Source of the DNA: Comamonas sp.
Lineage (GTDB): Bacteria > Pseudomonadota > Gammaproteobacteria > Burkholderiales > Burkholderiaceae_C
Length of the DNA: 64,000 bases
NCBI GenBank assembly: GCA_015478895.1
Contig: JADMKK010000033.1
Coordinates: 1 to 64,000 of the forward strand
Direction: 5' to 3'
The translations under genes and the position numbers were made by a program. The notes beneath the pieces are model-generated. The model made no database searches. It was given only the letters and a program-made list of their open reading frames with translations, and had not been told where the DNA came from. Shown here one piece after another: positions 31,061 through 34,004 of this stretch. Numbering within the stretch: the stretch's first letter is position 1; the number at the start of each line of letters is the position of its first letter.

Positions 31061-32218
31061 TCAAGCCACCAATTCCGGCTGTTCCACCGGCTGGGCCTGC
31101 GCACGGCGCACTTGCACTGCGCTGGACAGGTTTTCCAGCACATCCAGCGTGTCATTCCAGCCAATGCAGGCATCGGTAATGCTTTGGCCGTAGCTCAAGC
31201 CACGGGCATCGTCCTTGCCAGGCGTGAACTTTTGCGCACCCGCTACCAGATGGCTTTCCAGCATCACACCAAAGATGCGTTTGGAGCCCGCCTTCATCTG
31301 CACAGCGATGTCTGCGGCCACGTCCTTTTGGCGCTCGTGCTGCTTGAGGCTATTGGCATGGCTGCAATCGACCATCAAGCTGGCAGGCAAACCGGCTTTT
31401 TCCAGATCGGCGCAGGCCGCTTCTACGTGGGCCGCATCGTAGTTGGGTGTTTTGCCGCCGCGCAAAATCACGTGGCAATCTGGATTGCCCTTGGTGTGCA
31501 CGATGGCCACTTGACCGTTTTTGTGTACCGACAAGAAATGGTGGCCGTGGCTAGACGACTGAATCGCATCGGTGGCAATGCGAATATTGCCGTCCGTACC
31601 ATTCTTGAAACCAATCGGTGCCGAGATGCCCGAGGCCAGCTCGCGGTGGATCTGGCTCTCGGTAGTACGTGCGCCAATCGCGCCCCAGCTGATCAAATCT
31701 CCAATGTATTGGGGGGAGATCACGTCCAGGAACTCGCTGGCCGCCGGTACACCCAGGCGGTTGATATCAATCAGCAACTGGCGCGCAATGCGCAGGCCTT
31801 CGTCGATGCGGTAGCTGCCGTCCAGGTACGGATCGTTGATCAAACCCTTCCAGCCCACCGTCGTGCGCGGCTTTTCGAAGTACACGCGCATGACCACCTC
31901 CAGCGTGTCTTTGTACTGCTCGCGCACATCAGCCAGGCGGCGCGCATAGTCCAGTGCAGCGGCGGGGTCGTGGATGGAGCAAGGTCCCACGATCACCAGC
32001 AGGCGGTCATCATTGCGACCATGCATGATGTTGGCAATCGTCTTGCGCGTATCGCTGACCAGGGTTTCAACCGGGGTGCCCTGAATGGGGAAGAAGCGGA
32101 TCAGATGTTCGGGAGGGGGCAGCACGGTAGTTTCCTGGATACGTTCGTCATCGGTTTGTCCTGTTTTGTTATTGACCGAGCTGCGATACCAAGATTCGCC
32201 GTAGTTGTTTGCTGTCAT
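31061..32218 (-). CDS. aroG: 3-deoxy-7-phosphoheptulonate (DAHP) synthase, class I
   Basis: First step of the shikimate pathway: PEP plus erythrose 4-phosphate to DAHP. It is 385 residues of the AroF/AroG/AroH type: LLVIVGPCSIHD near 75, VMRVYFEKPRTTVGWKG near 108, GARTTESQIHRELASG near 182, GFKNGTDG near 204 and VDCSHANS near 282. AGAGG precedes the ATG. The leader carries an aromatic-rich reading frame (32324-32380) and a terminator (32250-32282), so expression is probably attenuated by charged aromatic tRNAs. Which amino acid inhibits the enzyme itself cannot be read from sequence with confidence. Confidence 0.96.
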   Translation of the reverse strand: MTANNYGESWYRSSVNNKTGQTDDERIQETTVLPPPEHLIRFFPIQGTPVETLVSDTRKTIANIMHGRNDDRLLVIVGPCSIHDPAAALDYARRLADVREQYKDTLEVVMRVYFEKPRTTVGWKGLINDPYLDGSYRIDEGLRIARQLLIDINRLGVPAASEFLDVISPQYIGDLISWGAIGARTTESQIHRELASGISAPIGFKNGTDGNIRIATDAIQSSSHGHHFLSVHKNGQVAIVHTKGNPDCHVILRGGKTPNYDAAHVEAACADLEKAGLPASLMVDCSHANSLKQHERQKDVAADIAVQMKAGSKRIFGVMLESHLVAGAQKFTPGKDDARGLSYGQSITDACIGWNDTLDVLENLSSAVQVRRAQAQPVEQPELVA

Positions 32219-32249
32219 GACTGCCTCTTTCCGAATTAATCGTGGGTAT

Positions 32250-32282
32250 AAAAAAACCGCCGGGCTTTTCAGCTTCGGCGGT
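32250..32282 (-). terminator. Attenuator terminator in the aroG leader
   Basis: Minus-strand stem ACCGCCG (32282-32276) with CGGCGGT (32262-32256), an inner GCT-GAAA-AGC hairpin, then six more T (32255-32250). It ends about 30 nt before the aroG ATG and 40 nt after the leader-peptide stop. tldD has its own terminator further upstream, so this one is best explained as control of aroG. Confidence 0.85.
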
Positions 32283-32323
32283 TGTCTTTGGGAGGTTTGT
32301 TCGTGTGTGCGAGCTTTTGCCTC

Positions 32324-32380
32324 TCATCCGCCTGGGACCGAGAACCAAAAGTAAAAATAAAAAGCGCTACGAACTTGCAT
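32324..32380 (-). CDS. Aromatic-rich leader peptide of aroG (attenuation)
   Basis: Short frame of 18 codons plus TGA, reading MQVRSAFYFYFWFSVPGG. Seven consecutive codons specify Phe, Tyr, Phe, Tyr, Phe, Trp, Phe, which is not expected by chance. The stop is followed by a terminator hairpin before aroG. As in E. coli pheL or trpL, ribosome stalling at these codons when aromatic aminoacyl-tRNAs are scarce should favour read-through. GGCGG in the last codons can pair with CCGCC of the terminator's first arm, giving a simple (5-bp core) antiterminator. The Shine-Dalgarno is weak; an in-frame GTG 18 nt upstream is an alternative start. Confidence 0.8.
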   Translation of the reverse strand: MQVRSAFYFYFWFSVPGG

Positions 32381-32388
32381 AGCGGATG

Positions 32389-32417
32389 ACTGTAACACCG
32401 CACATAGTGCACCGCAA
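32389..32417 (-). promoter_or_regulatory. Candidate promoter of the aroG leader
   Basis: TTGCGG (32417-32412), 17-nt spacing, TACAGT (32394-32389) on the minus strand. The predicted start site falls at or just before the leader-peptide ATG, so the leader would be nearly leaderless. Both boxes are imperfect. Confidence 0.35.
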
Positions 32418-32461
32418 CATCACCACCACAGAAAATTCAATAAAACTCCGAAAATACAAAC

Positions 32462-32495
32462 AAAAAAGGCCGACTCAACTCAATGAATCAGCCTT
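32462..32495 (-). terminator. Intrinsic terminator of tldD
   Basis: Twelve-pair minus-strand stem AAGGCTGATTCA (32495-32484) with TGAGTCGGCCTT (32477-32466; two G-U pairs), 6-nt loop, then a T run through 32462. It separates tldD from the aroG leader. Confidence 0.85.
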
Positions 32496-32534
32496 TTCAT
32501 CATTCAACGCAGAAAAACTGCGCCACATCACAAA

Positions 32535-34004
32535 TTAAGCAGTACCACCCACTGTGAGGCCATCAATGCGCATCGTAGGTTGTCCCACGCCAACAGGCAC
32601 GCTCTGGCCTTCTTTGCCGCAGGTGCCGACGCCGCTATCCAAGCGCATGTCGTTGCCGATCATGCTGACCTTTTTCATGCACTCGGGGCCATTGCCCACC
32701 AAGGTTGCGCCCTTGACGGGATACTGAATCTTGCCGTTTTCCACCCAGTAAGCCAGGCTGGCCGAGAACACAAACTTGCCGCTGGTAATGTCCACCTGAC
32801 CGCCCGCGAAGTTGGTCGCGTACAGGCCTTTTTTGATGGAGGCGATGATTTCCTGCGGATCCTTGTCGCCACCCAACATATAGGTATTGGTCATGCGCGG
32901 CATGGGCAAGCTGGCGTAGCTTTCGCGGCGGCCGTTGCCGGTGGCCTTCACGCCCATCAGGCGCGCATTGAGCGAGTCCTGGATGTAGCCCTTCAAGATG
33001 CCGTCTTCAATCAGCACATTGGCCTGGGTGGGGCAGCCTTCGTCGTCCACATTGAGTGAGCCACGGCGGTCGGGCAAAGTGCCGTCGTCCAGAATGGTGA
33101 CGCCCTTGGCAGCCACACGCTGGCCGATGCGGCCACTGAAAGCGCTGGAGCCCTTGCGGTTGAAGTCGCCTTCCAAGCCGTGGCCCACGGCTTCGTGCAG
33201 CAGCACGCCAGGCCAGCCCGAACCAAGCACCACCGTCATTTCACCGGCAGGGGCGGGGCGGGAGTCCAGGTTGATCAGCGCTTGCTCGACCGCTTCGTTC
33301 ACGTACTCCGTGATCTGTGCATCGCTAAAGTACGCCAGACCAAAACGGCCACCGCCACCGGATGAGCCCACTTCGCGGCGGTCACCTTGCTCGGCAATCA
33401 CCGTCACCGACAAGCGCACCAAGGGGCGCACATCGGCGGCCAAAGTGCCGTCAGCGCGGGCCACCATCACCACGTCGTACTCGCTGGCCAAGCCCGCCAT
33501 CACTTGCACCACACGCGGGTCTTTGGCGCGGGCCAGTGTTTCCACCTTGCCCAGCAGCTCGACCTTTTCGGTACTGTTCATACTGGCAATCGGGTCGATG
33601 CCGGGGTACAGCGTGCGCGAAGGGGCAATTGTGGTTTTAGGGATGCGCACTTTGCGCTGCTGCTGGGCGCCGGAAATAGCGCGCACCGTGCGGGCTGCAT
33701 CCAGCAGCGAAGCCTCGGAAATATCGTCCGAATAGGCAAATGCGGTTTTCTCCCCGCTGACCGCACGCACACCGACGCCCTGGTCGATAGAAAACGAGCC
33801 GGTCTTTACGATGCCCTCTTCCAGACTCCAGCCTTCGGCACGGGTGTACTGGAAGTACAGGTCAGCATCGTCCACCTGGTTGGCGCGGATTTCCGCCAGC
33901 GCGCGCGACAGGTGGGATTCATCCAAGCCAAAAGGCTCAAGCAGCAGTTGCCGGGCTACAGCCAGGCGCTCGATGGTGGGTTCGCGAGAGATCATGGCAA
34001 GCAT
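32535..34004 (-). CDS. tldD: Metalloprotease TldD
   Basis: TldD of the TldD/TldE (PmbA) protease pair, which processes peptides such as microcins and antitoxins. It is 489 residues with the zinc motif HEAVGHGLEGDF near 258 (HExxxH), YIQDSLNARLMG, and a C-terminal zinc ligand in GTCGKEGQ near 465. A second ATG at 33995 would shorten it by three residues. pmbA is not in this window. Confidence 0.95.
   Translation of the reverse strand: MLAMISREPTIERLAVARQLLLEPFGLDESHLSRALAEIRANQVDDADLYFQYTRAEGWSLEEGIVKTGSFSIDQGVGVRAVSGEKTAFAYSDDISEASLLDAARTVRAISGAQQQRKVRIPKTTIAPSRTLYPGIDPIASMNSTEKVELLGKVETLARAKDPRVVQVMAGLASEYDVVMVARADGTLAADVRPLVRLSVTVIAEQGDRREVGSSGGGGRFGLAYFSDAQITEYVNEAVEQALINLDSRPAPAGEMTVVLGSGWPGVLLHEAVGHGLEGDFNRKGSSAFSGRIGQRVAAKGVTILDDGTLPDRRGSLNVDDEGCPTQANVLIEDGILKGYIQDSLNARLMGVKATGNGRRESYASLPMPRMTNTYMLGGDKDPQEIIASIKKGLYATNFAGGQVDITSGKFVFSASLAYWVENGKIQYPVKGATLVGNGPECMKKVSMIGNDMRLDSGVGTCGKEGQSVPVGVGQPTMRIDGLTVGGTA

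Follow-up and report, generated by a model that had tools for sequence, protein, structure and literature searches.

Leader-peptide attenuation is a known mechanism class, and DAHP synthase is already among its targets. In the accessible parts of two papers on C. glutamicum, DAHP synthase is described as controlled by aroR-aroF attenuation with a Phe-Tyr-Phe leader (PMC4046766, PMC11802643), and limitation for Phe is reported to be effective at this aroF leader while limitation for Tyr is not (PMC11802643). The E. coli DAHP synthase genes aroF and aroH are under TyrR/TrpR repression according to the same partial source (PMC11802643), and the accessible text of a further study describes TrpR and TyrR as conserved in many gammaproteobacterial groups and absent from the other proteobacterial classes studied (PMC5343134). 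In the trpL system of S. meliloti (rnTrpL/peTrpL) the transcript has its 5' end at the leader ATG and functions in trans are reported (PMC7298713), and leaderless attenuators also occur in Streptomyces lividans (PMC8079986), in both cases as far as the available sections go. The portion of PMC1173090 at hand tabulates putative attenuators for DAHP-synthase operons, such as Vibrio aroA(I-alpha-Y)-tyrA, with the Merino database as source; the Bordetella attenuator in that table concerns the gyrA-serC-pheA-tyrA operon instead.

Here, we describe an element on the minus strand of a 64,000-nt stretch of Comamonas sp. DNA (the window), where tldD, a leader ORF, a terminator and aroG follow one another, and which, judging from comparative sequence analysis, very probably acts as a ribosome-mediated transcription attenuator of DAHP synthase. 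Like aroR-aroF of C. glutamicum, it puts a DAHP synthase gene behind a short aromatic leader peptide, with proposed ribosome-mediated attenuation, but aroR-aroF is actinobacterial, carries Phe-Tyr-Phe and responds to Phe and not to Tyr; we do not claim common descent, and convergence is the likely relationship. With S. meliloti trpL it shares a leader peptide upstream of an antiterminator and a terminator that exclude each other, and its transcript would probably start at the ATG as well, whereas trpL senses Trp only, precedes trpE(G), is alphaproteobacterial and has reported functions in trans. The attenuators of PMC1173090 likewise are predicted before a DAHP synthase gene, but they are predictions only, belong to other lineages, and come with no aromatic leader peptide in the accessible part of that source. 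The leader-peptide logic, with its mutually exclusive antiterminator and terminator, is also that of the E. coli trp, pheA and pheST leaders (PMC11802643, accessible part). The E. coli trp and phe leaders differ in sensing a single amino acid. Their translation is led by a Shine-Dalgarno (SD) sequence, and several sensed amino acids are a property of the ilvGMEDA and thr leaders.

A first-pass annotation of the window had called an aromatic leader sensing all three amino acids at the first step of the pathway, as far as its author knew, undescribed in this group. The general part of that claim falls, as attenuation of DAHP synthase is known from C. glutamicum aroR-aroF; the narrower part stands, in that our literature search recognised no report of an aroG leader in Burkholderiales, which is weak evidence of absence with most subscription papers outside its coverage. 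A genome-wide survey (PMC2965389) mentions neither aroG, aroF nor DAHP in its main text. As far as searched, what had not been described is the occurrence in this lineage, the combination of a three-amino-acid sensor with a probably leaderless start, and the presence in nearly all of the family.

Table 1. Features of the tldD-aroG region (window coordinates).
Feature	Position	Strand	Basis and remarks
Weak -35-like TTGCGG	32412..32417	-	By eye; 17 nt upstream of -10; 3 of 6 consensus bases
Extended -10, TGT-TACAGT	32389..32397	-	8 nt ahead of leader ATG; 8 of 11 positions match TGTGCTACATT
Leader peptide ORF, MQVRSAFYFYFWFSVPGG and stop	32324..32380	-	Predicted to be translated from a leaderless mRNA
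Sensor, seven successive aromatic codons TTT TAT TTT TAC TTT TGG TTC (FYFYFWF)	32342..32362	-	Read from sequence
Antiterminator strand 1, GGCGG(A)TG(A)GAGG	32320..32332	-	Across last codons and stop; predicted fold onto 32295-32277 with a ribosome set on the aromatic codons
Antiterminator strand 2, CCTC...CCGCC	32277..32295	-	Overlaps terminator 5' arm; CCGCC covaries with strand 1 in 100 leaders
Intrinsic terminator, 8-bp outer stem, GAAA-capped inner stem and T7	32250..32283	-	Folding; hairpin search
aroG, type I DAHP synthase, 385 aa	31061..32218	-	ORF and homology; proposed regulated gene
Terminator-like hairpin of tldD, distinct from the attenuator	32463..32498	-	Terminator scan
Upstream gene, named tldD in the first-pass annotation	32535..34004	-	ORF

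The leader ORF encodes 18 residues and reads ATG CAA GTT CGT AGC GCT TTT TAT TTT TAC TTT TGG TTC TCG GTC CCA GGC GGA TGA. The run of seven aromatic codons that the first-pass annotation had picked out is thus there, as are the GAAA-loop terminator it placed about 40 nt further on and the aroG gene behind it: 40 nt separate the leader stop from the terminator and 31 nt the terminator from the aroG ATG. The hairpin has the sequence AACCGCCG-AA-GCT-GAAA-AGC-C-CGGCGGTT followed by seven T, and two computations give it -16.5 and -17.4 kcal/mol. A scan for consensus promoters and terminators reported neither the leader promoter nor the aroG terminator, with totals about those of shuffled sequence, and the -35-like box was scored against the generally known -35 consensus. 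The best PDB matches of the aroG product include 5cks (chain named Phe-sensitive DAHP synthase), which we take to be the E. coli enzyme, and 4hsn, presumably that of Neisseria meningitidis. In Comamonas kerstersii, the nearest named relative in our set, aroG is 88% identical to that of the window and the leader peptide is identical.

Searching upstream of aroG orthologues, as the first-pass annotation had proposed, yielded an aromatic-rich leader at 76 of 79 testable related loci. Eighty aroG loci had been taken and one (L066) dropped, the contig end cutting off its leader region, and two leaders (L048, L061), outscored by another ORF in the automatic score, were recognised by reading. The leader was absent from two Polynucleobacter loci in which tldD abuts aroG (L076, L080) and from a Cupriavidus locus (L079). 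An aromatic-rich short ORF (score ≥1.5) was found in 69 of the 79 aroG upstream regions, compared with 3 of 361 control windows, and a run of seven aromatic residues arose with a frequency of 1e-5 in 200,000 mononucleotide shuffles of the leader ORF. Across 77 leaders (the 76 relatives and the window), Phe, Tyr and Trp make up 523 of 1772 in-frame codons (29.5%); the other two frames give 11.7% and 10.1%, and shuffles 10.7%. Codon by codon, the aromatic columns vary synonymously (TTT/TTC, TAT/TAC); in the 69 leaders that can be aligned on their last Trp, we counted TAC 42 times and TAT 14 times in the Tyr column, and TTC 52 times and TTT 8 times in a Phe column. Five leaders (L038, L044, L048, L053 and L074) carry His codons amid the aromatic ones, as in RYHFWHFHIQHLTGAGVANA of L038, which may reflect His sensing or drift from Tyr to His.

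The position of the promoter is also conserved. In 75 of 77 leaders, an extended -10 element (consensus TGTGCTACATT) lies 6–8 nt ahead of the ATG, and TANNNT occurs 5–9 nt before the ATG in 76 of 77 as opposed to 3.4% of 2400 random ATGs, while none of the 77 leaders has an SD-like motif. Bacterial transcripts start about 7 nt past the -10 hexamer, so the mRNA is predicted to begin at the ATG or within two bases of it. With the -10 element just before the ATG and no SD-like motif, the leader mRNA of the window's group is therefore probably leaderless, a point that the first-pass annotation had missed. Among distant leaders, TANNNT sits at the leaderless position in 13 of 24 and is missing from the other 11, and one has an SD-like motif; the prediction of leaderlessness is thus firm only for the window's own group.

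A relaxed finder recovered the terminator hairpin in 76 of 77 leaders, and a stricter one missed 5 of 77. The sole miss of the relaxed finder, L016, was excluded from the structure counts. In this locus, from a Ramlibacter MAG (around 2393-2500), the leader is present and the terminator and the usual spacer before aroG are missing, a gap that is a deletion or an assembly error.

The end of the leader ORF is overlapped by a motif, CCGGCGGnnGAGAGG, which is predicted to pair with CCTC..CCGCC ahead of and inside the 5' arm of the terminator. The GGCGG:CCGCC pairing had been suggested in the first-pass annotation, and two lines of evidence back it. In 100 leaders, GGCG is read in frame 0 in 68, in frame 2 in 26 and in frame 1 in 5, and is absent from 1; being read in different frames, the motif is conserved as RNA. 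The motif also covaries with its partner. A T precedes GGCG in 8 of 13 leaders whose arm is CCGCCA and in 4 of 78 whose arm is CCGCCG (Fisher p 6e-6, the relatedness of leaders being ignored; of the 100 leaders, 8 that had a different arm or were parsed with an offset and one more without GGCG were left out of this table). The pairing of each leader with its own arm has a mean of -15.3 kcal/mol against -14.5 (sd 0.15) with arms swapped, and 0 of 10000 permutations, which ignore kinship, were as low. In L061, all three parts changed together (GGGGCGGCT : AGCCGCCCC : GGGCGG). The covariation result given here uses an arm definition revised after three weaker tests: one with imprecise detection of the arms (7 of 76 loci at p<0.05), one in which the region start was wrong where the peptide ends in F (33 of 76 loci at p≤0.05) and one with a badly trimmed arm (393 of 5000 permutations as good).

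The antiterminator is also placed where a stalled ribosome would expose it. In 80 of 99 leaders, its motif begins 12–15 nt past the first base of the last aromatic codon in the cluster, a distance close to the edge of a ribosome stalled at that codon. When the leaders were folded as if a ribosome covered the aromatic codons, the antiterminator was part of the minimum-energy fold in 96 of 99 leaders for one stall position and in 98 of 99 for another. A ribosome placed at the stop codon left the terminator arm free in 87 of 99 leaders, while in the remaining 12 the arm had another pairing; this freeing is partly by construction since masking removes strand 1. Shuffled controls sequestered the terminator arm in 44% of 1960 trials, compared with 96 of 98 real leaders, and shuffled strand-1 regions reached -9 kcal/mol in 60% of trials, the sequences being GC-rich. 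Together, the data support an antiterminator that would be mutually exclusive with the terminator and would be freed by a stalled ribosome.

From the conserved aromatic ORF, the terminator, the covarying antiterminator and the promoter position that the alignments establish, we infer leader translation, stalling, read-through and the identity of the relevant amino acids, which can be put together as follows. RNA polymerase would start at the leader ATG or no more than about two bases from it, and translation would begin on a leaderless mRNA, as the promoter position suggests. When charged tRNA-Phe, -Tyr or -Trp runs short, the ribosome would stall in the aromatic block and leave the GGCGG..GAGG strand free to pair with CCTC..CCGCC; this antiterminator would capture the 5' arm of the terminator, and transcription would run on into aroG. 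With all three in good supply, the ribosome would reach the stop codon and cover GGCGG, the terminator would form, and a short RNA of about 130 nt would be the product.

The sensing of Phe, Tyr and Trp in this scheme is read from the codons, and the composition of the block leaves room for the same attenuator to be mainly Phe-sensing in practice, with Tyr and Trp codons as passengers or slow spots. We regard this as a possible but less favoured version. Phe accounts for 335 of the 523 aromatic residues in the 77 leaders and is the sole one in L061, Trp codons are absent from 11 of 22 distant leaders, and the Phe-Tyr-Phe leader of C. glutamicum aroF responds to Phe and not to Tyr in the accessible part of PMC11802643. 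By contrast, all three amino acids occur in 69 of 77 leaders (Phe and Tyr in 7, Phe alone in 1). Aligned on the last Trp, these 69 leaders give the consensus Y-F-W-F-S, with Y in 56, F in 66, F in 60 and S in 48 of 69; as Tyr at -2 and Phe at -1 are thus kept before the last Trp, the mixed aromatic core is conserved.

It is unlikely that the leader peptide or the terminated leaderless RNA acts in trans, with or without attenuation. The leaderless architecture and a short RNA would match rnTrpL, as the available text of PMC7298713 describes it, and the element is near-universal in the family. However, the peptide after the aromatic block is not kept as protein, the GGCGG stretch being read as PGGRE, PAEE/LAEE or PRRS by frame, and the parts identified lie in cis, ahead of aroG.

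A metabolite riboswitch or T-box with an incidental ORF would also give a structured leader with a terminator, and the leader RNA is indeed more structured than shuffles (z -2.75), but we consider this very improbable and reject it. Nothing in the window matches an Rfam family at its gathering score, Trp_leader (RF00513), riboswitches and T-box included, and a relaxed scan of 31900-32700 returned sub-threshold matches only, with no leader-peptide family among them and the best (E 0.031) over the terminator alone. Moreover, conservation is low in the spacer that separates leader ORF from terminator, and the changes among the aromatic codons are synonymous. That the hairpin just ends the upstream gene beside an accidental ORF, as its place between tldD and aroG and the translation of T-rich DNA into Phe might suggest, has next to no likelihood and is rejected on conservation (the excess of aromatic ORFs over control windows, and a promoter box at a fixed place) and on the separate terminator-like hairpin of tldD, which bears out the terminator that the first-pass annotation had assigned to that gene.

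The element is close to universal in the window's family. A sequence-only model (R1), built from 66 leaders and spanning promoter to terminator with no aroG included, matched 194 of 200 family genomes at E≤1e-6, of which at most 66 can be training genomes, or 137 of 141 genera and 176 of 179 good-quality genomes. Each genome had one match except G678, which had two, and the six genomes without a match are drafts of 210–700 contigs. In the window's own assembly there was no second match at E≤0.02; two weak ones (L085, E 0.024; L086, E 0.30) are not beside aroG.

Beyond the family, the distribution in the order is scattered. R1 matched 81 of 250 genomes in the order sample at E≤0.01, in which 188 genomes have an aroG homologue at E≤1e-100. 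Each of the 30 strong order-wide loci retrieved (L084, L087-L115) is immediately followed by an aroG homologue. Among the aroG matches listed, 52 of the best 60 order-wide R1 matches have aroG 23–147 nt downstream on the same strand, and one of the other 8 was confirmed directly upstream of an aroG homologue. A second model (R2) is partly circular because it contains 20 of these order-wide R1 finds; it matched 80 of the 250 genomes at E≤1e-3, and 61 of these, in 14 families, at E≤1e-6. Upstream of 20 aroG homologues of the order without an adjoining model match, inspection by eye of the three best ORFs and the last T runs of each disclosed the leader and terminator arrangement in none; one candidate (L137) was rejected, as its F/W-rich TTG ORF only overlaps an upstream T run. 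Outside the order but in the same class, R2 matched 20 of 274 genomes at E≤1e-3, of which 3 belong to the window's family, 2 are convincing (one family; L119, L120) and 15 are weak (E≥1.5e-5). The element also stands directly before aroG in Solimonas (L062), presumably placed outside the order, and is carried by L119 and L120, whose family is outside it. Horizontal transfer is possible in these three.

Elsewhere in the window's genome we found a second DAHP synthase-like gene, 54.6% identical (contig C35, L081:118-1185), and a third member of the DAHP synthase Pfam family (contig C5). The roughly 117 nt present before the contig edge ahead of the C35 gene hold no such terminator, and a leader further upstream, past the contig end, is possible. 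This gene apparently starts about 7 nt after a GACAAT box, and for that reason may itself be leaderless. The trpE gene (contig C4) is preceded by a 27-residue ORF, MFIHYVFITGCSDRGAWPWRKPASMTV (L151:1224-1307), which contains Trp-Pro-Trp, lies about 200–280 nt upstream of the trpE match and has an ATG closely preceded by a TACACT box and CATCCGCT, a start context (CATCCGCT-ATG) almost as in the aroG leader; this ORF may be a leaderless trp leader. A search of this genome for TrpR found none.

A bolder picture, which we think improbable as a whole, would make the element a family-wide, single-copy, leaderless OR gate for Phe, Tyr and Trp that replaces TyrR/TrpR repression in Burkholderiales and whose RNA of about 130 nt, an aromatic-peptide mRNA, acts in trans like rnTrpL/peTrpL. 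If true, starvation for any one of Phe, Tyr and Trp would open the first step of the shikimate pathway.

As a probable attenuator of DAHP synthase, the element offers a concrete, testable proposal for how a large bacterial group may control entry into the shikimate pathway. It could be annotated at once in many genera, since it has no Rfam match yet and 194 of 200 family genomes carry it. With a probably leaderless start and a mixed aromatic sensor, it is well suited to studying how attenuation works on leaderless transcripts and how several amino acids are sensed together, and it is a possible handle for aromatic overproduction in strains used in the laboratory.
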